Source: Paracoccaceae bacterium (GTDB taxonomy: Bacteria; Pseudomonadota; Alphaproteobacteria; Rhodobacterales; Rhodobacteraceae). From it: a stretch of 64,000 nt of DNA. Shown here in pieces: positions 8,626 through 64,000 of the stretch. Made by a program: the position numbers and the translations under genes. The stretch's first letter is position 1. Each line of letters opens with the position of its first letter. The notes beneath the pieces were generated by a model, which worked only from the letters and a program-made list of their open reading frames with translations, was not told the DNA's origin and searched no databases. The stretch covers positions 62,001-126,000 of the forward strand of contig WKFK01000014.1 of assembly GCA_014872815.1 (NCBI GenBank), given 5' to 3'.

Positions 8626-10946
8626 CCGTTGGCGCCTTCCGCGAGGTGGGCGAGGACCTGTTCACGTGGGCCATCCACCACAAGGCGGCCGTTTTGCAGG
8701 ATCAGCGTGCGGGTAGAGAGCGCCAAGATGGGCGTGCGGTGCGTGGCGATGAGGGCAGTGCGGCCTTCAAGCCAAGTCGAGAGGCGGCTGACCAGCGTGC
8801 GTTCCAGCGTTTGGTCGAGTGCAGCGGTGGGTTCATCCAGAAGTACGATGCTGGGATTTTGCAGCCAGAGGCGCGCCCAACCGATGGATTGGCGTTGGCC
8901 AATCGACAGGCCTTCGCCGCCGTCGCGGATTTGCAGATCCAGCCCCTGCGGGTGGTTGCGCAGGAAGGGGCCGAGGCCGGCAAAATCGAGTGCAGCCATC
9001 AGGCGGTCATCGTCGCGTTCCAGCTGTGTCAGGTTGAGGTTGTCACGCAGGGAGCCTGCAAAAAGGCGGACGTCCTGGCTGAGGTAGCCGATGTTGCGGC
9101 GCAGGTCGCGTTGGTCGATCTGGCCCATGTCGGTGCCGTCGAGCAGCACGCGACCTTTGGTCGGGCCATAGAGACCGGCCATGAGTTTCAGCAGCGTGGA
9201 TTTGCCGGAGCCGTTGGCACCCAGAATAGTCACGCGCTGGCCCGGTTTGATAACTACGCCGGGCACATCAAGGGAAGCGCCGCTGTCTTCGTCATAGGCA
9301 AAGGACAGCTCGCGAAGTTCAAACTGGCCTTCGAGTTTCTCGCGGCGCAGGTACTTGCGTTCGCCATCTTTCTCTTGCTCAGAAAGTGCAATGGCATCAA
9401 GGCTTTCCAGCGCGCCTTTGACGTTGGACCAGCGCGCCAGAGTGCCGGCAAATTGGGTCAGAGGGGCTAAGGTGCGCGAGGTGAGGATGCCGCAAGCGAT
9501 GATGGTGCCGACGGTGAACTCGCCTGCAAACACCAGGTAAGTGCCGATCACCACGGTGGCGATGTAGGTCATCTGCTGCACGCCTTGAGACCAGTAGGTC
9601 AGGGCGGAGCTGAGGCGGCGCTGCTCGGCGGAAGAGTGGCTGGAGACGGCGTTGAGTTCGTCCCAGAGGCGCAGCACGCGGTCTTCGCCGCGTTGGGTTT
9701 TTACGGTGTCGAGCTCGGTGATGACCTCTTGCAGCAGGCGGCCCACTTTGGCCGACGCGCCTTGGGTTTCGCGTGAGAGGGTGATCATACGTTTTTGCAG
9801 AACATAGGCGGGCAGGACCATGAGAACGCCGCCGAGCATCAGCACCCAGACAAGGTTGCCCGCGATGGAGGCCACAAGCGCGAGGAAGATGACAATAAAC
9901 GGCATATCCGCCAGCACCGAGATGGTGGTGGAGGTAAAGAAGTCGCGCACCGCGCCGAAGTCGCGCATGGCGGCAAACAGGCCGGATGGGGGCAGGGGGC
10001 GGCGGTCCGAGCGCATCCCAAGCAGGCGCTTCATCAGGCGGTGCTGGATGGAGAGTTCCATGCGGCGGCCTGCGGCGTCGCTCATCTTGGCGCGGGCGAG
10101 TTTCAGCAGGCCTTCAAGGCCAATGGCAAAGATTGCGCCGATGGCGAGCACCCACAGCGTGGCCTGAGATTGGTGCGGGATCACGCGGTCGTAGACTTGT
10201 AGCGAGAAGAGCGCGACGGCGACCGCCAAGAGGTTGGCAACCAGCGAGCCGAGCATGATCTCGCCCATGTGGCGGCGGTATTTGGTGAACTCGCCCCAGA
10301 ACCAGTGGCCCGACATGCCGTCTGCGATCTGTGGCACGTGGCGCTCAGCCAATTGGCGCAGGGAGACTTTGGCGCGCAGGGCGGTGCCAGAGAAAAACGG
10401 CTCAAACTCGGTGACCGGCACTTCGGCGCGGTTGTCCGCGCAGCTGTCGTCATAGACGTAGAGGGTGTCTTCGTCTTGAGAGAGGACGAGAATGGCCTGA
10501 CCGTTGTTCATCATCGCCACCGCGGGCCATGCGGCGGGAGTGACCTTCATTTTGTGATGAATTTTGGGTTCCACACCAGCGTGGGCCAGCGCACCGGAGA
10601 GGGCTTTGACCGAGACGTCACCGGGGGCATTGGTCCACATGTGTTCGGCCACATCGGTGACCGGAATGTCGACCCCATTGAGCGAGGCCAGTGTGGAGAT
10701 CAGCGTGGCGCGGTGTTGGATGCGGGTGGCCGTAGCCTCGACCAGATCGTGGATGGCATCCGCAGGGGTGGCGGCCGGTTTGTTTGGCGCTGGCGCATCG
10801 ACGGTTTTGGGGGTGATCTGTGCCACTTGCGGAGCAGCGGGGGGCGCTTGCGCGGGCGCGGGCGCCTTGTTGGCGGGTTTGGACGACTTCACCGCAGCAA
10901 TGGAGAGCACCACCGGTGCTTTACCTTTGGGGGTCCCGTCGCTCAA
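8622..10946 (-). CDS. Type I secretion ABC permease/ATPase (LapB-like)
   Basis: The 774-residue protein powers adhesin export. After a Pro/Ala-rich start, residues about 65-185 form a peptidase-C39-like domain, but the usual N-terminal catalytic Cys context is absent, so it is probably a non-cleaving substrate-docking domain. Six membrane segments follow (about 220-480). The nucleotide-binding domain has Walker A GANGSGKST, a Q-loop SQDV, ABC signature LSIGQRQ and Walker B IVLLDEPTAALD. The start is TTG with GGAG seven bases upstream, inside the end of the TolC gene (four-base overlap). This is the LapB type that exports large adhesins. Confidence 0.92.
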   Translation of the reverse strand: MSDGTPKGKAPVVLSIAAVKSSKPANKAPAPAQAPPAAPQVAQITPKTVDAPAPNKPAATPADAIHDLVEATATRIQHRATLISTLASLNGVDIPVTDVAEHMWTNAPGDVSVKALSGALAHAGVEPKIHHKMKVTPAAWPAVAMMNNGQAILVLSQDEDTLYVYDDSCADNRAEVPVTEFEPFFSGTALRAKVSLRQLAERHVPQIADGMSGHWFWGEFTKYRRHMGEIMLGSLVANLLAVAVALFSLQVYDRVIPHQSQATLWVLAIGAIFAIGLEGLLKLARAKMSDAAGRRMELSIQHRLMKRLLGMRSDRRPLPPSGLFAAMRDFGAVRDFFTSTTISVLADMPFIVIFLALVASIAGNLVWVLMLGGVLMVLPAYVLQKRMITLSRETQGASAKVGRLLQEVITELDTVKTQRGEDRVLRLWDELNAVSSHSSAEQRRLSSALTYWSQGVQQMTYIATVVIGTYLVFAGEFTVGTIIACGILTSRTLAPLTQFAGTLARWSNVKGALESLDAIALSEQEKDGERKYLRREKLEGQFELRELSFAYDEDSGASLDVPGVVIKPGQRVTILGANGSGKSTLLKLMAGLYGPTKGRVLLDGTDMGQIDQRDLRRNIGYLSQDVRLFAGSLRDNLNLTQLERDDDRLMAALDFAGLGPFLRNHPQGLDLQIRDGGEGLSIGQRQSIGWARLWLQNPSIVLLDEPTAALDQTLERTLVSRLSTWLEGRTALIATHRTPILALSTRTLILQNGRLVVDGPREQVLAHLAEGANG

Positions 10947-12313
10947 ATCGCGTCTCCGTCTGCCAGCAGGCCCAGATCGCGGGCGAGTTCCAGTTGCGCC
11001 AGCAGCTTGTCGTATTTGGCGTCCACGCCGTCAAGAGCGCGCAGCACCGATTGTTCATACACATCGACCACTTCGAGCACGGAGCGTTGTCCGGCGCGGA
11101 ATTGGGCCTCGAACAGTTTGTAGGTGTCGCGGCCTTCGCGGGCGAGCTGGTTGGCTTCGCGTTCCTGGCGTTCGAGGCTTTTGATGTTGCTTTCCAAGCG
11201 TTTGCGGTCGCGCGCGCCGTCTTCACGGGCCTCGTCCACTTGCCGGGCGGCAATGTCTTTGGAGGCCTCAATAGCTTTCAGGCGGTCGCCGGTGCCAAGG
11301 CCCAGGCCAACATCGTTGGAGATGTTCAGACCGGCGCTGTTGCCGCGGTTGGTGGTGCGGGCGCTGGCCTTGAGGCCGGGCAGTTGCGCGGCACGTTCTA
11401 CGGTGGCTTGGGCGACAGAGCGTTCGGCTTCGGCCCGGGCGCGCAGCACGTCCAGAGGTTCGACCGCCGGGTAAGATTGCGCGGAGAGGGCGGACACAGG
11501 TTTCAGGGTGAAGGTCGTGCCGGTCATGGCCTTGAGTTCGGCCAGCGCGGTGCCTGCGCTTTCAGAGGCGGTTTCGCTTTTGGTTTCCAATGTCTGGATC
11601 TTGCTGCGCACCATGCGCAGGTCGCCTTTGTTGGAGACACCGCCGTCGACGCGGCCCTGCACGATGCGTTCAAAATGGTGCAGTTGGGCGAGGCCTTTGG
11701 TGCCGACCTGTGCTTTCTCTTGGCCGCGTAAGCCTTTGATATAGAGCGCCAGAGCAGTGTAGGTGCGTTCGTTAAGATCCTCTGAGAGGGTGACGGCGGC
11801 AACTTCGACATCGGCGGCGGCATAGTCGCGTTCGGCTTTTTTGCGGCCGTGGTCAAACAGCACCTGTTCAAACACCAGTCCGGCGATCACGTCGCTGAGT
11901 GTGGTGAGCGAGATTTCCGGGCTCAGGGTCGGGAGCCAGTTTTTGTTTTCGGCCTGTGCCCGCAGTTTGGCGGTTTGCAGTTGGGCCTCAGCGGAACGGC
12001 GCGAGGACGTCAGCGCCACGTCGGCCACATGTCCCAATGCGCTGTCGGTTGGAATGACCGAGCGGCGGGCCAGAAGGGTGGTGAGAATCTCACTTTGGGT
12101 CTTGGCATCCGCGTCCTGCTCAAAGCTGGTGCGTTTGCTGACTTCGGCGGCGGCCTCGGCCTCTTCGGGTTTGGCTTTCAGCAGGCTCAAGGGCTTGCTC
12201 ATGTCCGGTAGGTGCTCACTCATATTGGCCATGCAGCCGCTCAGGAGCGTGGCGCCCAGTAACAAGGGCAGGCTGGATGTCAGAGAGCGGCGGGACATTT
12301 TGGCGGCGGTCAT
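10943..12313 (-). CDS. TolC-family outer-membrane channel of the type I system
   Basis: The 456-residue protein opens with a signal sequence and a lipobox-like LLSGC (Cys about residue 26), suggesting a lipid-anchored channel as in LapE/OprM types. The long helical region from about residue 75 to 450 has the TolC internal duplication: PEISLTTLSDVIAGLVFEQV in the first half and NISNDVGLGLGTGDRLKAIE in the second. It sits between the adhesin gene and the ABC gene, completing a three-part exporter. Its end overlaps the ABC start, so translation is coupled. Confidence 0.88.
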   Translation of the reverse strand: MTAAKMSRRSLTSSLPLLLGATLLSGCMANMSEHLPDMSKPLSLLKAKPEEAEAAAEVSKRTSFEQDADAKTQSEILTTLLARRSVIPTDSALGHVADVALTSSRRSAEAQLQTAKLRAQAENKNWLPTLSPEISLTTLSDVIAGLVFEQVLFDHGRKKAERDYAAADVEVAAVTLSEDLNERTYTALALYIKGLRGQEKAQVGTKGLAQLHHFERIVQGRVDGGVSNKGDLRMVRSKIQTLETKSETASESAGTALAELKAMTGTTFTLKPVSALSAQSYPAVEPLDVLRARAEAERSVAQATVERAAQLPGLKASARTTNRGNSAGLNISNDVGLGLGTGDRLKAIEASKDIAARQVDEAREDGARDRKRLESNIKSLERQEREANQLAREGRDTYKLFEAQFRAGQRSVLEVVDVYEQSVLRALDGVDAKYDKLLAQLELARDLGLLADGDAI

Positions 12314-12363: not shown

Positions 12364-15300
12364 TCAGATGATGACGTTGATGTCTTGGTCAACGATCAGG
12401 GTCACGCCGTCATTGCCAACGGTGTAGACGTCATAGGCTTCGCCTTCGATGTTCACGGTCTGGTTGGTTTTGGTCGCGTCCGCCACGGTGATCTGGTCGT
12501 CGGAGCCGCCATGGATCGTGAGCGTGTCGGATGTGTCAGACAAGGCTTTGATCTGCGCTTCGGTCAGGGTCAGGTTTGCGTCAGACGCGTAGTCCAACTC
12601 AATGCCTTCGATGTTGAAGTTACCGGCGGCTGCATGTTCGATGGTGCCCGCGTTGGTGACGTTGTCGTCCAGAACCAGAAGGGTATCGGACTGGTTGCCC
12701 GCATCATCGGTAGAGGCGATCACCAAATGGGTGCCGTCAGAGGCTGCCGGATTGAGCGCGAACAGGGATTCATCCCCGCCGAGTGGCACCTCAGTTGCGG
12801 CCAATTCGGAAGATGTGCCGTTTTGGTGCAGCGCATGGATGTCATAATCCTGTGCCTCTGTGCTGAGCGATACAGCGGTCACGTCATCATCAGAGAAGGT
12901 CACGGATTGCACCACCGGGTTGGTGATTTCCGTGTCCACGGCAAAGGTCGCATTGGCGGTGGCCGTGTTGCCTGCCGCGTCGGTCACCGCGAGGGTGGCG
13001 TTTGCCGTGTAGGTACCTTCTGGCAGAGAGCCGTTTTCGTAGGTGACAAACCAGTTTCCTGAGGCATCCGAAGTGGTGCTGCGCACCACGCCGTCCACGG
13101 TCACGACAACGGAAGAGTTTGGCTCCGTTGTGCCTTCGAGCACCACGCCGCCCTGCATTTGTGCGGCATTGACCGGGGCGGCAAAGACGCCAGCAGAAAT
13201 GTCAACGGCAATTGAGGTGGAGGTGTCCACATGGATGGTCGACGTGGCGGAGGCGGTGTTGCCTGCGGTATCCGTCGCGGTGACGGTGACAGGGGCATCA
13301 TATTCGCCCTGTGGGATGTCCGCTGCGGTGAAGTTGGCAACCCATGTGCCGTTGGCGGCGGCAGTGACTGTGCGCGATGCGCCTGCGATCTGGACAACCA
13401 CGGTGCTGCCTGCGTCGGCGGTGCCTGTGAGGCTCAGACCCCCCGCCACTTCTGCGGCGTTGGCGATGTCGTCGCCGCCGGCCTGACCTGCGTTGATGCC
13501 TGCGGACAACTCTGTGTCCACTGCGACGGTGCCGGTCGTGGTGGCGCTGTTGCCAGCGGCATCGGTTGCAGTGATGGACACGGTGCTGTTGTAGGTGCCT
13601 TGCGGGATTTCACCGCCTGCGAAGGTCGCCGCCCATGTGCCGTTGGCCGCGGCGGTTACGGTGTGGGTCACGCCTTCCATGGTGACGGCCACGGAAGAGC
13701 CGGGCTCTGCGGTGCCTGTCAGGGTGAAACCACCGGCCACTTCTGTGGCATTGGCGGTGTTGTCGCCGCCCAGCTGGCTTGCATCCATGGCCGCCGAGAT
13801 TTCGGTGTCCACCCGGAAGCTGTCAGACGTGGTGGTTACATTGCCCGCCAAGTCAGTCGCAGTCACAGAGACTGTGGTGTCGTAGGTGCCCTGTGGGATT
13901 TCGCCAGCGGCGAAGGTGGCCGACCATGTGCCGTCGCCTGCGGCGGTCACGGTGTGGGTGACGCCTTGGATGGTCACGGCGACCGAGGAGCCTGCTTCGG
14001 CTGTGCCGGTCAGCGTGACGCCCGCGGCGGCCTCAGCCGCGTTCACCATATCGTCGCCCGCAATCGGGGAGGTGATGGTGGCAAGGCCTTCGGTGTCGAT
14101 CTGCACCGTGAAGGTTTCGGTGTGGCTGTTGCCTGCCAGATCGGTTGCGGTGATCGACACAGTGCTGTCGTAGGTGCCGGTGCCAATCGCGGAGGCGGCA
14201 AAGGCGGAAGACCATGTGCCGTCGCCTGCGACGGTGACGGTTTGGGTCACGCCTTCGAACTGAATGGACAGGGTGGAGCCTGCTTCGCCAGTGCCGGAAA
14301 GTACAACGCCATCAGAGGCTTCTGCGGCGTTGATGATGTTGTCGCCTTCGACGATACCCATGGCGACGCCGGGTGCGATTGTGTCCACCTGTAGGGTGTC
14401 GGTCACGGTGGTGACGTTGCCGCGCTGATCGGTGGATGTGATGGTGATGCCGGTGGTGTATTCGCCGGTGGTCAGGGCGGAGGAGTCAAACGTGACAGAC
14501 CAGGTGCCGTCGTCAAGCACTGTCGTGGTCTGTGTGGTGCCGTCGATTTCCACGGTCAATGTTGCGCCCGCTTCGCCGGTGCCGCTGATCACATGGCCGG
14601 TGGTGTGCTCCGCTTCGTTGACGATATCGCCAGTCGCAACGGTCCCGTCCATCACCGAAACGTCTGGTGGGGTGGTGTCGATATCAACGGAAGGACCGTC
14701 CAGATCATAGACAGTGCCGCCAGGGGAGACCACATTTACAGTGGCGTCATAGGCGCCATCGGCCGGCAGATCGGCAGGATCAAAGATCACCTCGTAGGTG
14801 CCATCATCCGCGATAACGCCTGTCCCTGTTTCGTCGCCGATAGTCACGGTGACGGTTGAGCCGGGTTCGCCGGTGCCGGTGATTGTGACGCTATCGTCGG
14901 CGGTGCCGCCCACTTCGCGCAACACGTTCACATCATCCACGGTTGGCGTGGCTTCACCCCCACCGCCGCCACCGCCGCCGATCCCGGTTGCCACAACCGC
15001 GGCGCCACCTGCGCCTACGAGACCGGGAACCAACCCTGCCAGCGGCGCTGCCAGTGGGGCCACAACCGGCTCTACCCGCTCAAGATCCAGGAAGGCCAGT
15101 TGGTCATATTCGCTCCATTTGTCCGTCATGGAGACGCTGTCATATTGCGCGAAGTACTGATCGTTGATCGGGTCGCCGAGCTCGACAACCTGCACCTGAC
15201 CGTTTTTGGACAGAAGCAGTTCACGATCCTCAATTGAGAAGTAGTTTTCCAGAGTGATGGTTTCGCCGTTCACCAGATGAATCACCAAATCACCACCGTC

Positions 15301-15450
15301 ATTCACATAGCCAGCGACGTCTGCGGGGGTGAGGTTGAGGGAGATATGGGAGGCTTGTTGGCTTGCGATGACGCCATTTGCGGCATCTGCAGTTTGGCCG
15401 CGTACAACAACTCCATCCGCGCCGCGGACGGCATAACTGTAACTACTCAT
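12364..15450 (-). CDS. Ig-repeat surface adhesin with BapA-type N-terminus, type I secreted
   Basis: The 1028-residue acidic protein has a BapA-prefix-like domain (about residues 1-125), a hydrophobic Ala/Gly/Pro stretch and an eight-glycine run near residue 160. Seven Ig-like repeats of about 95 residues follow (about 168-843), with recurring GTAEAGSSV, DGTWSATF and TATDLAGN blocks and VDT boundaries. The C-terminal 185 residues contain LTEAQIKALSDTSDTLTIHG and end in DQDINVII, like the uncleaved C-terminal secretion signals of LapA-type adhesins. No RTX nonapeptides were seen. There is no N-terminal signal peptide, as expected for type I export. It leads the operon; the role is probably surface attachment or biofilm. 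LapD/LapG homologues are not in the window. Confidence 0.88.
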   Translation of the reverse strand: MSSYSYAVRGADGVVVRGQTADAANGVIASQQASHISLNLTPADVAGYVNDGGDLVIHLVNGETITLENYFSIEDRELLLSKNGQVQVVELGDPINDQYFAQYDSVSMTDKWSEYDQLAFLDLERVEPVVAPLAAPLAGLVPGLVGAGGAAVVATGIGGGGGGGGEATPTVDDVNVLREVGGTADDSVTITGTGEPGSTVTVTIGDETGTGVIADDGTYEVIFDPADLPADGAYDATVNVVSPGGTVYDLDGPSVDIDTTPPDVSVMDGTVATGDIVNEAEHTTGHVISGTGEAGATLTVEIDGTTQTTTVLDDGTWSVTFDSSALTTGEYTTGITITSTDQRGNVTTVTDTLQVDTIAPGVAMGIVEGDNIINAAEASDGVVLSGTGEAGSTLSIQFEGVTQTVTVAGDGTWSSAFAASAIGTGTYDSTVSITATDLAGNSHTETFTVQIDTEGLATITSPIAGDDMVNAAEAAAGVTLTGTAEAGSSVAVTIQGVTHTVTAAGDGTWSATFAAGEIPQGTYDTTVSVTATDLAGNVTTTSDSFRVDTEISAAMDASQLGGDNTANATEVAGGFTLTGTAEPGSSVAVTMEGVTHTVTAAANGTWAATFAGGEIPQGTYNSTVSITATDAAGNSATTTGTVAVDTELSAGINAGQAGGDDIANAAEVAGGLSLTGTADAGSTVVVQIAGASRTVTAAANGTWVANFTAADIPQGEYDAPVTVTATDTAGNTASATSTIHVDTSTSIAVDISAGVFAAPVNAAQMQGGVVLEGTTEPNSSVVVTVDGVVRSTTSDASGNWFVTYENGSLPEGTYTANATLAVTDAAGNTATANATFAVDTEITNPVVQSVTFSDDDVTAVSLSTEAQDYDIHALHQNGTSSELAATEVPLGGDESLFALNPAASDGTHLVIASTDDAGNQSDTLLVLDDNVTNAGTIEHAAAGNFNIEGIELDYASDANLTLTEAQIKALSDTSDTLTIHGGSDDQITVADATKTNQTVNIEGEAYDVYTVGNDGVTLIVDQDINVII
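12922..14950 (-). repeat. Seven in-frame Ig-like repeats of the adhesin
   Basis: The segment encodes seven tandem modules, each about 285-295 bp. Modules 3-5 are the most alike, sharing protein blocks such as GVTHTVTAA and EIPQGTY, so recombination could change copy number. The outer modules are more divergent. Confidence 0.8.
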
Positions 15451-16258: not shown

Positions 16259-17377
16259 ATGGTTGGATTGAAGCACGCGGTTTTGATCGCCCCAGCGGCA
16301 ATGGTTGTGGGCAGTGTTGCCATGACGTCGACGGCCGCGGCAGAAGACGGTTTCCGGTTTTATGGGTTTTTGAACGGTGCTGTAACAAGCGTGGATGACG
16401 GCGTTCAGCGACGCAATGAGTTCAGTGACAACAGCAATGCGCCCAGCCGGATTGGTGCCTGGTATGAGATGGGCACAAATGCGGGCACGTTGAAGTTTAA
16501 CTTCGAGACAGCTTTGGGATTGCGGGGCACGTCCAGCCTAAGCATGGACTCCAGCGATGACTTCTTTGATTGGGATAAGACCGATCTGCGGAAGTTTGAA
16601 GCGATCTATGAAACCGATCGTTTCGGAACGGTTTATGTGGGGCAGGGTTCCATGGCGTCAGACGGCATTTCGGGCGGGACCGATATGTCTGGCACGGATC
16701 TGAGTGGGACAGTGGCCATCGCTGATACCGCGGGCGGATTTGCGTTCCAGCCAACAGGTGGCGGTGCGGCTGGTCCAACCATCGGCGACGTGTTCAAAGA
16801 CTTTGACGGCAGCCGCAAGGGCCGTGTGCGGTATGACACGGCAAGCCTTGGTGGGTTTGTGGTGTCGGCGTCTGCCGGGACCGAGATCTTGAAGGACAAT
16901 GACGACACCAATTTCTATGATGTGGCGTTGCGCTACGGCAATGATTTTGGGGACACCACCTTCAAAGCGACGTTGGCCTATGCGCAGACCGATGGGGCGT
17001 CTGATGACGCCAAGTCCGTTCTTGGGTCCGTGGGGGCGTTGCACAATCCGACCGGGATCAGCGGCACGCTCACTGTTGGGCAAAACGACCGGGATAGCGG
17101 GCTGAAGAGCGATTACGTCTATGCAAAGGTTGGTTTGCAGCGCGATTGGTTCAGCTTTGGCCGTACACATCTGTCTGTTGATGCCTATCGCGGCAATGAC
17201 ATGTTTGACGCGGCCGGTGACAAATCCGTGGCCTACGGTTTTGAAGCGGTGCAGAAGATCGACAATGCCAATGTGGACCTGTTCTTCAGCTACCACCAGC
17301 ACGGCTATGACGTGAACACCGGCACCACCTACAACGATGTGGACGCCTACATGCTGGGTGCGCGCTGGAGCTTCTGA
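16259..17377 (+). CDS. Outer-membrane porin-like protein, copy 1
   Basis: The 372-residue protein has a signal peptide ending near STAAA (about residue 29). It continues with alternating beta strands, from FRFYGFLNGAVTSVDDGV to a terminal strand AYMLGARWSF ending in Phe, as in trimeric outer-membrane barrels. The N-terminal motif NSNAPSRIG and KFNFETALGLRG are shared almost exactly with the next gene, so the two are tandem paralogues. GGAGAGAG precedes the ATG. It probably forms a general diffusion pore; the solute is unknown. A strong terminator follows, so the two porins are separately transcribed. Confidence 0.8.
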   Translation: MVGLKHAVLIAPAAMVVGSVAMTSTAAAEDGFRFYGFLNGAVTSVDDGVQRRNEFSDNSNAPSRIGAWYEMGTNAGTLKFNFETALGLRGTSSLSMDSSDDFFDWDKTDLRKFEAIYETDRFGTVYVGQGSMASDGISGGTDMSGTDLSGTVAIADTAGGFAFQPTGGGAAGPTIGDVFKDFDGSRKGRVRYDTASLGGFVVSASAGTEILKDNDDTNFYDVALRYGNDFGDTTFKATLAYAQTDGASDDAKSVLGSVGALHNPTGISGTLTVGQNDRDSGLKSDYVYAKVGLQRDWFSFGRTHLSVDAYRGNDMFDAAGDKSVAYGFEAVQKIDNANVDLFFSYHQHGYDVNTGTTYNDVDAYMLGARWSF

Positions 17378-17678: not shown

Positions 17679-18797
17679 ATGAGGAATTTGACGTATCAAA
17701 GCAGCGCGCTGGCGGTAAGTGTGGGCTTGGTGGCCTTGTTTGGCGGGTCCAGTGCTCTGGCACAAGACAACAATGCCCGGTTTTATGGGTTCTTCAATTT
17801 GATTGTTACCAGCACCGATGATGGGTTTGAGACCAACACGCAGTTGGTGGACAACTCCAATGCGCCCAGCCGGTTTGGTCTGTGGTGGGAAACGCCGTTG
17901 GGGCAAGGGACGTTTAAGTTCAACTTTGAAACGGCGCTTGGCTTGCGCGGGTCGTCTTCGCTGAGCATGACCAATAAAGAGCCGGATTTTGTGGACTACG
18001 CGCGCACCAGCCTGCGAAAGGTCGATTTCAGCTGGGGCGGTGACTTCGGCACGTTTTACATCGGGCAGGGCAGTATGGCCGCGGATGGGATGACGGGGGC
18101 GGACGACTCCGGGACTGGGTATATTTCTACCTCTGCGGTGGCTGATGTGTCGGGTGGCTACACGTTCCGTGTGAGCGGAACAGGGGCGCCGGGGCCGACA
18201 GTTGGGGCTGTGTTCAATGACTTTGATGGCGGACGTTTGGGACGTATCCGGTATGACTCGCCCACGTTTGGCTCTGGATTTTCGGTCGGGGCTTCGGTTG
18301 GTGAGAATATCCTTGTGTCCGGCAATGATGACATCAATTACGATCTGGCGCTGCGGTACTCTCGCGAAAACGGCGGCATGAAATACGACGCGCGCTTAGG
18401 CGGGCTTTGGGTGGATGGCCGCAATGGCAATGCGGACAACACGGCTGTGGTTGGATCGTTTAGCGCGTTGCATCTGAGCACTGGGATCAACGCCAAGATC
18501 GGAGCAGGGTGGCGCGACAACAGCGGTCTGGACAGCAACTATGTTTACACAAAGCTCGGCATTCGGCGCGACTGGTGGCAGGTGGGAGAAACCCGCCTGT
18601 CGGCGGATTTCTTCTGGGGCAATGACAGTGTTTTGGCTGGGGATGACGGGTTCACTTGGGGGCTGCAGGCCACGCAGGTGATCGAAAATGCCAATGCTGA
18701 ACTGTATTTGGCCTATCGTCAGCACAGCTACAGCCAGCCCGGAGTGAGTTTTGAGGATGTGGGCGCTTGGGCCTTTGGCGGTCGCTGGTTCTGGTAA
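17679..18797 (+). CDS. Outer-membrane porin-like protein, copy 2
   Basis: Like its upstream neighbour this is 372 residues with a signal peptide (cleavage near SALA, about residue 28). It has the same blocks (RFYGFFNLIVTSTDDGF, NSNAPSRFG, KFNFETALGLRGSSSLSM, FYIGQGSMAADGM) and ends in an aromatic strand FGGRWFW. The copies differ mainly in the loops between strands, as expected of paralogous porins with different selectivity or exposure to phage. GGGAGGGA lies upstream of the ATG. It has its own 300 bp upstream region. Confidence 0.8.
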   Translation: MRNLTYQSSALAVSVGLVALFGGSSALAQDNNARFYGFFNLIVTSTDDGFETNTQLVDNSNAPSRFGLWWETPLGQGTFKFNFETALGLRGSSSLSMTNKEPDFVDYARTSLRKVDFSWGGDFGTFYIGQGSMAADGMTGADDSGTGYISTSAVADVSGGYTFRVSGTGAPGPTVGAVFNDFDGGRLGRIRYDSPTFGSGFSVGASVGENILVSGNDDINYDLALRYSRENGGMKYDARLGGLWVDGRNGNADNTAVVGSFSALHLSTGINAKIGAGWRDNSGLDSNYVYTKLGIRRDWWQVGETRLSADFFWGNDSVLAGDDGFTWGLQATQVIENANAELYLAYRQHSYSQPGVSFEDVGAWAFGGRWFW

Positions 18798-20367: not shown

Positions 20368-20447
20368 GTTGGGGTGGTGACGGGGCGGCAGAGTTGACGT
20401 TGTTGTGCTTCGTGGTTTGCTTGTCCTTATGTGAGGGAGGAGCACCT

Positions 20448-20861
20448 ATGGGATACACAACTTTCGACAAAGCCGGATATGACGCCTTCAAAGCCAACGA
20501 TCGCGCCGGGCCGGTGCATATGCTGAACCTGGTCAAGCTGCGCGATAAAGCAGAATACGCCGATGGGCGCGAGGCTACGGGGGCGGAGGCTTATGCGGTC
20601 TATGGGCGTGAGAGCGCGGCGACCTTTGCCAAGCTGGGTGGCAAGATTATTTGGCGGGGCGAGATGGAGCAGATGTTGATCGGGCCGGAGAAGCAGTGGG
20701 ATCTGTGTTTTATTGCCGAGTATCCCAGCGTGGAGGCTTTTGCGTCGATGCATAAGTATCCGGAATACCGGGCCGCGGTCGAACATCGGCAGGCAGCGGT
20801 GGCGGACAGCCGCTTGATCCGAATGGCGCCGAAGGACTTGGGGGGGAATTTTGGGGAGTGA
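20448..20861 (+). CDS. DUF1330 family protein
   Basis: The 137-residue protein shows the DUF1330 (dimeric ferredoxin-like barrel) pattern: GPVHMLNLVKLRDKAEY near the start, then AYAVYGRESAATFAKLGGK, and the closing FIAEYPSVEAFASMHKYPEYR block with VEHRQAAVADSRLI. The family is of unknown function. The start has an excellent GGGAGG seven bases upstream. It converges on the radical SAM gene with a 74 bp gap and no obvious terminator between. Confidence 0.85.
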   Translation: MGYTTFDKAGYDAFKANDRAGPVHMLNLVKLRDKAEYADGREATGAEAYAVYGRESAATFAKLGGKIIWRGEMEQMLIGPEKQWDLCFIAEYPSVEAFASMHKYPEYRAAVEHRQAAVADSRLIRMAPKDLGGNFGE

Positions 20862-20935
20862 AGCCGAAGCTTTCTTCCCAATTTGGTTTCTATATAGCCA
20901 GCTGTCGCCCCTTGACCTGCGAAATTGTTTGGCGG

Positions 20936-22075
20936 TTAGGTGGGCGATGGTTGATCGTCGGGGTTTCTTCTGAAAATACGCGAAGTTATGCCGGGTGCGC
21001 GATCGTTGCCCGCTTGTTGCACTGCGAGGCATTCTGCAACTGCGCCGGACTTTGAGCCTCGAATGATCTCATTTGTACATGGGCTACATGTTTCCAAGAA
21101 AACGCATGTGTTGCAGGGTGCCAAAAAGGACTTTCGATGTCCGCGCTTGATCGACGTATCAAATCCTTTGAAAACACTTGTTTTGTGTACGTCCTCAAAA
21201 CTATTGATTGCCAGGTTCAAACGATCAATTCTGCGAGATACGTTGATGTTTTCGTTTTCTTCAAATGACATGGCGGGGCAAGGGAAATTGTTCCCTAGTA
21301 GATCTACATAGGAGTAAACGCTGGTGCCTCCGCACGCTTCGTCGGTGATTGTTTCGCAGGGCGTGCCGGTTGCCTGAGCGAGATACTCGCCCAGAGCCGG
21401 AGGGATATACATATTGAAGCGGGAGCCTTCGCGCATCAAGCAGCCAACGTAGAACTCCACAAGTGCGTCCAAGAGATCGCGGCCAGTGATCGCCAAGGTG
21501 TCTTTGTTTTTCTCTGCGCGATCATTGTATTGTAGTGTTTTGAAATTGATGGTTCTAAAGCCATGTTCGGCTGCAAAGGCAGCCAGTTTTGGCGTTTCCG
21601 GACGATTTGCGGCGGTTAAGACAAAGGTCATATCGACTGTCAGGTCTCCGTCTAAATATCTTTTGTGCCGTGTGAGCGCCCGAAGGTTATTCATTGTTTT
21701 TGCAAAAGATCCTTTGCCCCGCATTTTGTCATGGCTCTGGGCTTCAATGCCGTCCAAGCTAACCACGATGTTCTTTAAGGCCGCATTTTGACACACAGCG
21801 TATAGGCTCCGGAAATCGATCAAATTTGAGTTTACGGAAACGTAAAGGCCTAGTTGTTCCGCGGCCGAAACGATGTCTGTAAAATCCTTACGGAGCGTTG
21901 GTTCTCCCCCCAAAAGCGTTACGGTGTCGACACCGCCTTTCTGAAGCTGGCGCAGAACTGCGCAAATCTCTTTTGTCGACATCCCTTTGCGGGGACGCAA
22001 TTGATCGTTTCCGACGAAACAGTGAGCGCAACGAATGTTGCACTCACCGGTGAGGTAAATCACTGCAGATGTCAC
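20936..22075 (-). CDS. Radical SAM/SPASM peptide maturase
   Basis: The 379-residue enzyme has the radical SAM cluster Cys12-x3-Cys16-x2-Cys19 (ECNIRCAHC) and the SAM-binding GGEP at 56-59. A SPASM region follows: Cys248-x12-Gly-x4-Cys266, then Cys321-x2-Cys324-x5-Cys330-x2-Cys333 and Cys349, enough ligands for auxiliary Fe-S clusters. SPASM enzymes commonly build thioether, carbon-carbon or ether crosslinks in ribosomal peptides. The start is GTG, six bases after the stop of the 89-codon gene, so the two are coupled and that product is the likely substrate. Sampled lines are 38-47% GC, below the neighbours, suggesting transfer. The reaction cannot be named from sequence. Confidence 0.88.
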   Translation of the reverse strand: MTSAVIYLTGECNIRCAHCFVGNDQLRPRKGMSTKEICAVLRQLQKGGVDTVTLLGGEPTLRKDFTDIVSAAEQLGLYVSVNSNLIDFRSLYAVCQNAALKNIVVSLDGIEAQSHDKMRGKGSFAKTMNNLRALTRHKRYLDGDLTVDMTFVLTAANRPETPKLAAFAAEHGFRTINFKTLQYNDRAEKNKDTLAITGRDLLDALVEFYVGCLMREGSRFNMYIPPALGEYLAQATGTPCETITDEACGGTSVYSYVDLLGNNFPCPAMSFEENENINVSRRIDRLNLAINSFEDVHKTSVFKGFDTSIKRGHRKSFLAPCNTCVFLETCSPCTNEIIRGSKSGAVAECLAVQQAGNDRAPGITSRIFRRNPDDQPSPT

Positions 22076-22081
22076 AGCGGG

Positions 22082-22351
22082 TTATTTTTCGAAGCGAACT
22101 TTATTGGTGCCGCTATTGCAGCAACCTGCGCCAATGCCCCAACGGGCTTCTACAACGTCAATGCCTGAAGCGCGCGCAACGCCGCCTAGAGCACCCTGCC
22201 AAGTGCGTGCAAGTCGCTCCATTTCTTGGGCCTGCGCCTCATCGTCAACATCCACACCCATTTCGATTGCCACCGCCTTTGGGTTTGCTACAAATCTCGC
22301 CAGTGTTGTGGGGTCTTCCAGATGAGAAATAATCTGTTTGGGATCGGCCAT
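22082..22351 (-). CDS. Putative RiPP precursor peptide for the radical SAM enzyme
   Basis: The 89-residue product has a helical, acidic N-terminal two thirds. The run LEDPTTLARFVANPKAVAIE followed by MGVDVDDEA resembles Nif11/NHLP-type leaders (D/NP, then xxGV with acidic residues). The C-terminal 20 residues are of different character: RWGIGAG, adjacent Cys77-Cys78, NSGTNK and VRFEK, a plausible modified core. A Gly-Gly at residues 56-57 (ALGGVA) is a possible leader cleavage site, leaving a long 32-residue product. ATG 22351 has GGAGAG four bases upstream; a TTG four codons earlier is less likely. It directly precedes the radical SAM gene. No protease or immunity gene was recognised beside it. 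Confidence 0.7.
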   Translation of the reverse strand: MADPKQIISHLEDPTTLARFVANPKAVAIEMGVDVDDEAQAQEMERLARTWQGALGGVARASGIDVVEARWGIGAGCCNSGTNKVRFEK

Positions 22352-22372
22352 GATACTCTCCAACTCTTAAAT

Positions 22373-22390
22373 AAAAACACCTTTAGGGTG
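22373..22390 (-). terminator. Weak terminator or attenuator before the precursor gene
   Basis: On the minus strand CACC pairs with GGTG around CTAAA, followed by five T. It stands 22 bp before the precursor start, between the HlyD-like gene and the cassette. A TTGACA (complement of 22409-22414) lies just upstream as a possible -35, with no convincing -10. Confidence 0.3.
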
Positions 22391-22557
22391 CTTCATGATC
22401 CTGTTTGCTGTCAAGGAAAAGAAAACCAAGCAGGTATTGTCCTCACCAGTATGGGGCGGTCAAACCTGCGCGTCTGAGGCTTCTTTCGGTGTGATGTGGA
22501 AGGCTTTGTGGACTTTGACAGCTCGGGCTGTTTGTCGCCTGAGCTGGTTGAGGGAGG

Positions 22558-23793
22558 TCAGTGATGGCCCGAGAACACCAAGAGGCGGAAGGGCATCATG
22601 ATGGCGCGGAAGCGCAAGATCAGGGCGTGCGCGTAGCCGACGGTGTCGATCACATGCAGGGCAACAAATTCGCCGGTGCCAATGTCGGGATCTTGCAGTC
22701 GCTCGTGGTTGTTAGTGTAGGCGTTGACCTCACATTTGCTGCCTGGCGGCAGGTGGTCGGTGCCGCCTTCATAGAGTGGTTCCATATAGGCAATCACGGT
22801 GCCCGGCTGGCGGTCGTTCTGTGGGTCGCGCAGCGTGTCGGTGGGGCGAATTTGACCTGAGGGGATCACGTCCTGGACTTCCACAATTACCATGGGGGTG
22901 ATACGCATAGGGCTAGAAATGCAGGACATTTCGGCCAGCATGCCGGGGTGCAGTATCTGCGCGGTCAGCTGGCTGAAGCCGGCCTGAAAGCGGCCGCGGC
23001 CGGTGTCGGTGGGCACCAGAATGCCTGCGGGACGCAGGATCGGGTTGATATAGTCGCCGACACGCAGGTCAAATTGCTCGATGCGGCCGGTTTGACCGGC
23101 GTAGATGCTCATCTTGCTCAACTCGACTTCGGCTTGGTGCAGCGCGGCGCGGGCGCTGTCCTTCTGCGCAGGCAGTTGGATTTCGACACGGTGTTTGGCG
23201 GATTCCACGGCGGAATGCGCGGCATCCACGGCGGCGAGACGTTCTTGGATCAGATTTTCAAGTCGCTCCACCTCGCGCACGGTCACGGCAGGGGAGTTTT
23301 GCTCATAGAGCGTGTTCTTGCGCTCAAACTCATCTTTGGTTTGCTCAAAGGCGGCCTCGGCAGCGTCGAGATTGGCTTGGGCCACGCGCAGGTCGTCACG
23401 GGCCAAAAGCTCGCCAGCATCGACTTCGACCATTGCGGCGCGGGCAGTGGCAACGGCGGCGCGTTGGCGGCTGTCGTCCAGGCGGAAAATCAACTCTCCG
23501 GCTTCGACGTCCTGATTGTTTTCCACGTTCACTTCAACCACGCGGCCAGAGAGTTCCGGCAGGATGGTGACGGTGCGGAAGTAGGAGGACGCGTTGGTGG
23601 TGGAGGGATGGAAGTAGAAGATCAGGGTGATCAGGCTGACCGTGAGGATGAAACAGGCGCTGAGACCGTAGCGCAGCTCGTACCACATGGAGAACAGGGT
23701 GATCTCTTGCCCTAGACGTTTGCCCTGCCAATAGCGGCGGAACAGGAAGTCAGGGAAGATGGTGAGCATGGAGCAAGCGAGGAATTCCAACAT
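22558..23793 (-). CDS. HlyD-family membrane fusion protein (YibH/YiaV-like)
   Basis: The 411-residue protein has an unusual amphipathic start (LEFLACSMLTIFPDFLFRRY), then a membrane segment at about 48-63, the lipoyl half-motif RVVEVNVENNQDVEAGELIFRL, a long coiled-coil hairpin (about 105-225), IYAGQTGRIEQFDLRVGDYI and a barrel. It lacks the HlyD C-terminal signature of the exporter at 7.4 kb. It is a clear paralogue of the partial gene at 63417, sharing WYELR, SLITLIFYFHP and FRTVTIL. It follows the small membrane protein gene by 3 bp. In E. coli, YibH/YiaV proteins pair the same way with DUF3302 partners. Whether it exports the nearby peptide is inference. Confidence 0.82.
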   Translation of the reverse strand: MLEFLACSMLTIFPDFLFRRYWQGKRLGQEITLFSMWYELRYGLSACFILTVSLITLIFYFHPSTTNASSYFRTVTILPELSGRVVEVNVENNQDVEAGELIFRLDDSRQRAAVATARAAMVEVDAGELLARDDLRVAQANLDAAEAAFEQTKDEFERKNTLYEQNSPAVTVREVERLENLIQERLAAVDAAHSAVESAKHRVEIQLPAQKDSARAALHQAEVELSKMSIYAGQTGRIEQFDLRVGDYINPILRPAGILVPTDTGRGRFQAGFSQLTAQILHPGMLAEMSCISSPMRITPMVIVEVQDVIPSGQIRPTDTLRDPQNDRQPGTVIAYMEPLYEGGTDHLPPGSKCEVNAYTNNHERLQDPDIGTGEFVALHVIDTVGYAHALILRFRAIMMPFRLLVFSGHH

Positions 23794-63025: not shown

Positions 63026-63424
63026 ATGGACGCCGAACTACCGTTTTTTGTCGTAGCGCCCGGTGGCACGGACTTTCTGATGTTGGCCATTGGCATCTTC
63101 CTTGTCTTTGTCTTGCTGGGCCTTGGCGCGCTGTATTTTACGGTGCAGGCCATTCCCGACCGCATGGCCTCTGGCAGCCACAAGATCCAGATGCAGATGG
63201 TTGGCATTTTGGGCGTGATCTCGCTTTTCACCATGAACAACGCGTTCTGGATTGCAGGTATATTGCTGGCGGCGATCCCGTTTCATGAGCTGTTCCCAGA
63301 CCATTTTGCGCGGGTAGATCAGGCTTTGGCGGCGAAAGAAGAGACAACGGAGATTGATGACGAAGAGACGGCGCCTGTTGACGCAGATGTCCCGGCAGTT
63401 GCGGAGGTGCAAGACAATGCTTGA
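63026..63424 (+). CDS. Small inner-membrane protein, DUF3302-like, copy 2
   Basis: The 132-residue protein has a first membrane segment at about 17-40 (LAIGIFLVFVLLGLGALYFT) and a second at about 56-82, separated by IPDRMASGSHKIQMQMVG, and an acidic tail. It is a paralogue of the protein at 23797. GGGGAGG lies upstream of the ATG. Its end overlaps the next HlyD-like gene by eight bases, as in a coupled pair. Confidence 0.72.
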   Translation: MDAELPFFVVAPGGTDFLMLAIGIFLVFVLLGLGALYFTVQAIPDRMASGSHKIQMQMVGILGVISLFTMNNAFWIAGILLAAIPFHELFPDHFARVDQALAAKEETTEIDDEETAPVDADVPAVAEVQDNA

Positions 63425-64000
63425 GTTGATGTTGAGCTGCCTTGTCACGCTGGTTCCCGATATCCTCTATCGCCGTTATGCGCAGGGCAAACGGCTGGGG
63501 CATGAGATCACATTCTTCAACGTTTGGTATGAGTTGCGGTGGGGCATAACGTCTTGCGGGATTTTGGCGGTGTCGCTGATCACGTTGATTTTCTATTTCC
63601 ATCCTACGTCTGACAAAATCACCTCGTTCTTCCGCACCGTGACAATCCTGTCAGAATCCGGTGGTCGTGTTGCGGAGGTTTATGTGAGCAACCATGACCG
63701 TGTGGCGGAAGGCGATCCGCTGTTCCGGCTGGACACCGCGCGCCAAGAAGCGGCAGCGGAGACGGCGCGGCGACAGATGGCCGAGGTGGATGCGGCCTTG
63801 CTGCTTGGCGCAACTGAGATTGCCGGGGCGCAGGCGCAGTTGGATGCGTCAGAGGCGCAGCTCACACAGGCGCGGGATGATCTGCAGCGGCGGCAAAGCA
63901 TTGCGGAGCGCAACAGCACCGTGGTGACGGAGCAGGAGTTGGAGCAGCTGTCCAATGCGGTGGATGTAGCCGAGGGGCAGCGCAACGCGGCGATTGCGGC
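63417..64000 (+). CDS. HlyD-family membrane fusion protein, copy 2 (partial, runs off window)
   Basis: The first 194 residues are visible. They have the same amphipathic start (LELMLSCLVTLVPDILYRRY), membrane segment, FRTVTIL and lipoyl half-motif VAEVYVSNHDRVAEGDPLF as the gene at 22558, then a coiled-coil hairpin. It is a clear paralogue. The 3' part is outside the window, so whether it is intact is not known. Confidence 0.8.
   Translation, partial: MLELMLSCLVTLVPDILYRRYAQGKRLGHEITFFNVWYELRWGITSCGILAVSLITLIFYFHPTSDKITSFFRTVTILSESGGRVAEVYVSNHDRVAEGDPLFRLDTARQEAAAETARRQMAEVDAALLLGATEIAGAQAQLDASEAQLTQARDDLQRRQSIAERNSTVVTEQELEQLSNAVDVAEGQRNAAIA

Follow-up and report, generated by a model that had tools for sequence, protein, structure and literature searches.

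A probable two-gene RiPP cassette, apparently acquired horizontally, pairs a precursor peptide with a radical SAM/SPASM-type enzyme in a Paracoccaceae bacterium

Organization of the locus

The sequence analyzed here, hereafter the window, is a stretch of 64,000 nucleotides from the genome of a Paracoccaceae bacterium (contig WKFK01000014.1, positions 62,001 to 126,000). Two closely spaced genes lie on its minus strand. The first (22082..22351) runs from an ATG at 22351 to a stop codon at 22082-22084 and encodes a putative precursor peptide of 89 amino acids; the second (20936..22075), with a GTG at 22075 and a stop that ends at 20936, encodes a radical SAM/SPASM-type enzyme of 379 amino acids. 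The original prediction had described an 89-codon gene followed, six bases past its stop, by a GTG-started radical SAM gene, and these coordinates and starts are borne out; the GTG is moreover aligned with Met1 of the enzymes of both relatives described below. A ribosome-binding-site-like GGAG precedes the precursor ATG (22358..22361, minus strand), and no such sequence was seen on reading the bases ahead of the enzyme GTG, so that translation of the enzyme is likely coupled to that of the precursor. Three regions of the peptide can be told apart (all on the minus strand): a leader (residues 1-70; 22142..22351) delimited by predicted helices and by identity among members, a core block WGIGAGCCNS (residues 71-80; 22112..22141) that is the same in all three known members, and a variable tail, GTNKVRFEK, with the stop codon (22082..22111). 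The peptide motifs named in the prediction (RWGIGAG, Cys77-Cys78, NSGTNK and VRFEK) are all present.

Both genes are poorer in GC (precursor 53.7%, enzyme 49.6%) than the window as a whole (58.8%). The low GC content claimed earlier thus stands relative to the window average, although it is milder at the level of genes than in the sampled lines of sequence (38-47%). The GC3 of the enzyme gene (0.530) is the lowest among the 32 largely non-overlapping open reading frames of at least 250 amino acids listed, some of which are probably not genes, and the cassettes of the relatives are likewise poorer in GC than their own loci. At the locus, one promoter-like site (1.3 expected) and three terminator-like sites (2.8 expected) were found, and the RNA fold downstream of the cassette had a z of 0.30. 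Rfam returned no match in 20400-23000, no tRNA was found in the window, and no word of 8-10 bases, with one mismatch allowed, was common to the upstream regions of the three cassettes.

Elsewhere in the window, two tandem plus-strand genes (16259-17377 and 17679-18797), each encoding 372 amino acids, appear from their sequence to encode related proteins of the porin type. On the minus strand, 12364-15450 encodes a protein of 1,028 amino acids with repeated units that are Ig-like by sight, beside a TolC-like gene (10943-12313); its product is perhaps a type I secreted adhesin.

Relatives of the precursor and pairing of the two genes

A precursor-based scan of 84,980 species, with one genome per species and six search words, returned 205 stretches with a word match, of which 2 encode relatives of the precursor. 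These are from Sphingomonas oligophenolica S5.1 (locus L032, 5971-6237) and Pseudooceanicola sediminis CY03 (locus L033, 5965-6255), both of genera other than that of the window. In both, a radical SAM gene lies directly downstream of the peptide gene, with a start that overlaps the peptide stop by 4 bases in S. oligophenolica and begins 26 bases past it in P. sediminis. Homologs of the peptide beside an enzyme gene, which the prediction had proposed to look for, are thus present in two of two cases, with a conserved core that includes the Cys pair; homologs without the enzyme, which would have spoken against it, were not found among the 84,980 species genomes. A small peptide gene is therefore kept beside a tailoring enzyme gene across genomes in all three known members, and the recurrence of the pair in two other genera indicates that it is not due to chance.

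The precursors of the three members are 88-96 residues long. Pairwise, their leaders are identical at 21, 17, and 18 of 69 positions and their tails at 0/7, 1/9, and 1/7, while WGIGAGCCNS is identical at 10/10 positions in every pair. This invariance is partly built in, since WGIGAGCC was one of the six search words, and the only one common to both relatives, through which they were found; only Asn79 and Ser80, which like the neighboring enzyme played no part in the precursor scan, are free of this bias. Among the loci, 5 of the 10 core codons differ, all of them synonymously and including AGC/TCC for Ser. That the peptide is a chance open reading frame beside an orphan radical SAM gene might be argued from its lack of a family match above cut-off; this can be dismissed with near certainty, being refuted by precursor relatives that are paired with enzyme genes in two other genera and that combine a conserved core with synonymous codon changes.

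Searches with the enzyme suggest that the cassette is rare. Matches were confined to the source genome itself among 394 genomes of its family (1/394; E up to 1e-30) and among 100 relatives; 385 genomes of the class added one NirJ-like match and 349 genomes of the phylum 17 partial matches (31-36% identity), with no new member (the genome draws of these searches overlap). Similarly, the Sphingomonas enzyme was found in 1 of 151 genomes of its genus and 1 of 149 of its family, in each case that genome itself. Weak precursor matches occurred in 7 other genomes of the 394 (E 6.7e-5 to 0.006); an enzyme search in a family draw of the same size, with the same listed genomes, found the enzyme in the source genome only, and at the match in one of the seven (L005) no radical SAM-like open reading frame was seen. 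Among viral contigs, the enzyme protein gave no match, an enzyme profile gave two distant ones (24 and 28%; L064 and L065), and a precursor profile gave 35 stretches with no relative; among phages, none of 21 records covered 80% of the enzyme query. Plasmids returned 422 records for the window enzyme, all below 60% identity (22-32% among the 40 matches listed), and none for the enzyme of either relative at 1e-15. When the enzyme was used against the collection of species genomes, 11 stretches matched and none was a relative, though both relatives lie in that collection; more members may exist, because exact-word scans miss enzymes as diverged as these. Several further precursor matches proved to be due to chance: those on Rhodovulum plasmids (of three, the two that were viewed are antisense to repB), those on Sphingobium plasmids (of four, the one that was viewed has no radical SAM gene annotated within 5 kb), and those on four viral contigs, two of them alike, that carry WGIGAGCC codons and in which a precursor-like frame is absent.

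Structure and affinities of the precursor

An AlphaFold model of the precursor, built with three sequences, has four predicted helices within residues 4-61, with a pLDDT of 75-83 in ten-residue blocks of residues 1-60. For residues 72-89 the pLDDT falls below 50, and the model suggests that this part is probably disordered. The tail GTNKVRFEK is possibly a follower that is removed on maturation. A fold comparison of the structure model gave 29 matches, none of them significant (best E 2.9). The precursor had no Pfam match, and no model of Pfam, NCBIfam, PHROGs, or PADLOC was above cut-off.

The leader had been described as Nif11/NHLP-like. In favor of this, TIGR04509 (NHLP-related RiPP peptide) matches the P. 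sediminis precursor, one of the three members (E 0.0059; 16.6 bits against a cut-off of 34), and the best PDB sequence match of a three-member precursor profile is an NHLP leader chimera (8tb1, E 0.053). However, TIGR04509 does not match the precursor of the window, no NHLP leader model is passed above its cut-off, and unrelated matches are about as strong: a thioredoxin reductase, which is unrelated, follows in PDB at E 0.069 for the same profile, and IniB_NTERM matches the precursors of the window (E 0.011) and of S. oligophenolica (E 0.0049), far under its cut-off. The resemblance to NHLP is thus a faint lead rather than an indication of membership.

The radical SAM enzyme

The enzyme is a member of the radical SAM superfamily (Pfam PF04055, E 4e-20; 73.1 bits against a gathering score of 29.5) and carries the CxxxCxxC motif (C12, C16, and C19). 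The enzymes of the three members align end to end; that of the window is 33.9% identical to the Sphingomonas enzyme and 36.3% to the Pseudooceanicola enzyme, the closest relatives found, over nearly the full length, and among themselves the three share 33.9-36.7% identity over 357-377 residues at 226-247 bits. For comparison, nine other enzymes were included (MftC, PqqE, CbpB, GDL, NirJ, Aureibacter, two from Rhizobium, and L075). Eight of these gave a match, at no more than 94 bits; L075, probably read in the wrong frame, gave none and has a tree branch of 6.93. In a tree of 18 rows, which took in 5 of the 17 partial matches from the phylum (L016, L017, L021, L025, and L027; L015 is absent from it), the enzyme forms a clade with those of the two cassette relatives (support 100/99). 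The model of the enzyme structure is poor (pLDDT 48).

On the assignment to the SPASM type, as made earlier, the observations are divided. All the predicted cluster cysteines (12, 16, 19, 248, 266, 321, 324, 330, 333, and 349) occur in the enzyme, and none of them varies among the three members. SPASM domains carry seven cysteines in the pattern CX9-15GX4C, CX2CX5CX3C, C, and in the enzyme C248-x12-G-x4-C266 and C321-x2-C324-x5-C330 fit this pattern. However, the last spacing is x2 (C-x2-C-x5-C-x2-C) and not the x3 of the C-x2-C-x5-C-x3-C motif described for SPASM (PMC3023750), and no SPASM model of Pfam or NCBIfam matches the window enzyme. The enzymes of the relatives reach 18.0 and 23.5 bits on TIGR04085 (SPASM; cut-off 27) and 13.0 and 15.5 bits on a further SPASM model (cut-off 21.5). 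The enzyme can therefore be called SPASM-type mainly because of its cysteine pattern. Of 81 NCBIfam families that match it, 25 were listed, and all of these are below their curated cut-offs. Across Pfam, NCBIfam, PHROGs, and PADLOC, its matches are to general radical SAM models or, where a cut-off exists, to specific models that it does not pass.

Since CxxxCxxC begins at residue 12, the enzyme has no room for an N-terminal RRE. A separate RRE was sought as a PqqD-family protein only (PF05402), and none was found in the source genome at E up to 0.001; a control search matched 3 of 14 genomes.

These data also bear on whether the peptide could instead be a helper or structural subunit of an enzyme whose substrate lies elsewhere, such as a small molecule in a reaction of the NirJ-like or viperin-like kind. 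NirJ is indeed the top NCBIfam match of the enzyme, and all three of its PADLOC matches are viperin-type models. Yet these matches span at most residues 6-207, the common radical SAM part, NirJ reaches 92 bits against a cut-off of 515, and the tree places the enzyme with those of the two cassette relatives and away from NirJ. Further, the fixed Trp/Cys block lies in an end of the peptide that is probably disordered, as is typical of a substrate. A helper role for the peptide thus appears improbable, and the preferred reading is that the peptide would be the substrate.

Genomic setting and acquisition

The cassette lies in an extra segment of 1,696 bases (20862..22557) between a convergent pair of genes identified by Pfam scan and in relatives: a DUF1330 gene (20448..20861, plus strand) and a HlyD-type membrane gene (22558..23793, minus strand), the latter directly upstream of the two genes. 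From the 26 HlyD loci available, 15 were compared (L035-L049), each from a different genome of the genus and none from the source genome. A DUF1330 gene adjoins HlyD in 14 of these 15, and the gap between the two, as measured between the ends of tblastn matches, is 38-92 bases in 11 of the 14 and 520, 604, and 1,365 bases in the other three, against 1,696 in the window. Neither cassette gene occurs in any of the 14 relatives that keep both neighbors, and searches with the peptide (E up to 0.1) and with an enzyme profile (E up to 1e-25) did not find the cassette in the 24 genomes of the genus besides that of the window. The import that the prediction had read from base composition is thereby supported by empty sites, and the cassette was apparently acquired horizontally. 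Terminal repeats did not stand out at the cassette, and no transposase family appeared among the neighbors scanned, which came to six proteins in the relatives and, with the pair itself counted, seven in the window.

The three longer gaps carry other sequence: an apparent open reading frame in L037 (981-1500), by its look an AraC-type regulator in L039 (136-1500), and in L042 (897-1500) sequence like the transglycosylase gene of the window. The gap between DUF1330 and HlyD may accordingly be a recurrent landing place. By eye, a hairpin, GC-rich and followed by a T-run, is evident in the gaps of the six relatives viewed and not in the window. Because it is present without the cassette in relatives, the HlyD gene is probably an ordinary neighbor; the DUF1330 gene is one as well. 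The start of a second HlyD-type gene lies at 63417-64000 on the plus strand (contig 125417-126640), about 41 kb from 22558-23793, of which it is a paralog with 48% identity.

The flanks differ in all three loci. In place of DUF1330 and HlyD, the S. oligophenolica cassette is flanked by fumarase and LepA genes, and that of P. sediminis by an open reading frame that looks autotransporter-like and a PNPOx-type gene. Behind LepA lies a methyltransferase gene, and about 1 kb behind the P. sediminis enzyme a flavin oxidoreductase gene; neither is common to the three loci. Among the neighbors scanned, the three loci share no gene that looks like an RRE, and none that looks like a protease, an exporter, an immunity gene, or a second tailoring gene; the lack of the latter four would be unusual for an exported RiPP.

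This setting has a bearing on the product. It is possible, though not favored, that the cassette makes a bacteriocin or signaling RiPP that relies on general host proteases and exporters, which would be another form of the RiPP cassette. Its sporadic and apparently imported occurrence would suit such a product, as would the weakly NHLP-like leader, this leader class having been described for bacteriocin precursors (PMC3023750). On the other side stand the core, invariant among three members, the lack of any peptidase or immunity gene seen adjacent, and the presence in relatives without the cassette of the HlyD-type gene, which is the only exporter-like neighbor in the window.

Comparison with described systems

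The precursor had been said to fall outside the described families, and this is upheld insofar as no scanned library names it and all its matches are below cut-off. In the literature, the strings GIGAGCC, WGIGAG, and GAGCCNS and a description of this peptide or enzyme family were not found in the running text of the papers covered; a match is possible in PMC9062424, where 22 putative pathways are presented mostly in figures. The cassette is a new and rare family of a RiPP type that is already known, namely a leader peptide, here helical and only weakly NHLP-like, with a radical SAM/SPASM-type enzyme that is the one candidate maturase.

A close parallel in layout is provided by systems in which NHLP/Nif11 leader peptides have a radical SAM protein as the only candidate maturase (TIGR04064; section 8 of PMC3023750). 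These (TIGR04064, TIGR04103) share with the cassette a leader peptide and a single radical SAM enzyme whose C-terminal part carries a Cys motif. However, the leader here is below the family cut-offs, the enzyme reaches 61 bits against 725 (TIGR04103), and its last SPASM spacing is x2 rather than x3. Of the other enzymes compared, MftC of the mycofactocin system is the one that BLAST places nearest to the window and Sphingomonas enzymes (28% identity), and mycofactocin likewise has a conserved C-terminal core. However, the precursor here has 89 residues and is helical, whereas MftA (L069) has 30, TIGR03962 reaches 74.6 against 265 bits, and none of the seven window proteins scanned is MftB/D/E-like. 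CbpA/CbpB (TIGR04163 type) are likewise a precursor and an adjacent SPASM enzyme, again from an alphaproteobacterium, but CbpB is only 24% identical (60 bits) and its precursor, of 45 residues, lacks the core motif. PqqE is a peptide-modifying SPASM radical SAM enzyme, as the enzyme here would be; it differs in sequence (25% identity to the PqqE of L071; TIGR02109 72.2 against 381 bits), and no PqqD-family protein was found in the genome of the window.

The thioether maturases StsB and SkfB are high-ranking sequence matches of the enzyme (NF045574 and 6efn, respectively), but these matches start only at about residue 100-110 of StsB and SkfB, and the portion of the two proteins ahead of that point, which in SkfB is an RRE (PMC8326336), is missing here. 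The StsB-type sactipeptide model is not passed (NF045574, 91.2 against 625 bits), which does not speak against a thioether. The NirJ/heme d1 model is likewise far from its cut-off (TIGR04051, 92.3 against 515 bits), and the enzyme stands apart from an annotated NirJ (L073) in the tree. Additionally, a plasmid of Aureibacter (Bacteroidota; L074, 2150-4353) was seen to carry three DUF1843 (GDL-type) peptide genes followed by a radical SAM gene, whose product groups with the GDL maturase of Azospirillum (100/100).

Proposed mechanism and implications

The first reading of the cassette as a RiPP precursor with its maturase is largely supported by these comparisons of sequence, and the locus probably represents a self-contained, horizontally acquired two-gene RiPP cassette whose enzyme modifies the core. 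Reservations are the lack of a SPASM model match for the window enzyme, its x2 spacing, the weakness of the NHLP likeness, the search-word bias in the core, and the small number of known members (three), along with the lack of shared accessory genes noted above. Under this model, the precursor made from the first gene would consist of a helical leader, a decapeptide core that is fixed, and a short tail that varies. The SPASM-type enzyme would most likely bind the leader or the core directly, without an RRE; the helical leader may dock on the body of the enzyme, as reported for SuiB (PMC8326336), or the core alone may be read. A 5'-deoxyadenosyl radical generated from SAM, together with auxiliary iron-sulfur clusters, would then install a crosslink inside the core. 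With seven SPASM cysteines to hold two clusters, one iron site may be left open. The first choice for the crosslink, at somewhat less than an even chance, is a thioether that joins Cys77 or Cys78 to a carbon of the backbone or of a side chain, as suggested by the two adjacent fixed cysteines in the core; the second, distinctly less probable, is a C-C crosslink centered on Trp71. Host proteases would trim the leader and the tail, and no dedicated exporter would presumably be needed.

In a more specific form of the RiPP cassette, the product would be a small, conserved peptide that serves as a cofactor or binds metal and would not be an antimicrobial, with the core fixed, as in PQQ and mycofactocin, for the sake of one exact molecule. 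This would account for a core that is identical at 10/10 positions while leader and tail drift, and for the lack of any exporter or immunity gene seen in common among the loci, two features that together make a defined intracellular molecule plausible. However, the search word accounts for part of the core identity, which comes from three members only, and occurrence in a single genome of a large group (1/394, 1/151) fits a dispensable product too; a product of this kind is accordingly a tentative possibility. It would be a bolder and rather unlikely step to regard WGIGAGCCNS as the template from which only two genes and host proteases make a new cofactor or metal-binding molecule of ribosomal origin, by a logic comparable to that of PQQ and mycofactocin but with a Trp and two neighboring Cys at its chemical heart.

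As a two-gene RiPP cassette, the system would be minimal and portable, and it offers a defined target of ten residues for a radical SAM enzyme that stays below the cut-off of every specific family model among the 25 of 81 listed. It would also provide a SPASM-type maturase that apparently works without an RRE. Should the core, and not the leader, truly be the part that stays constant, a single exact molecule may be the product; for tests of this, two short genes suffice.
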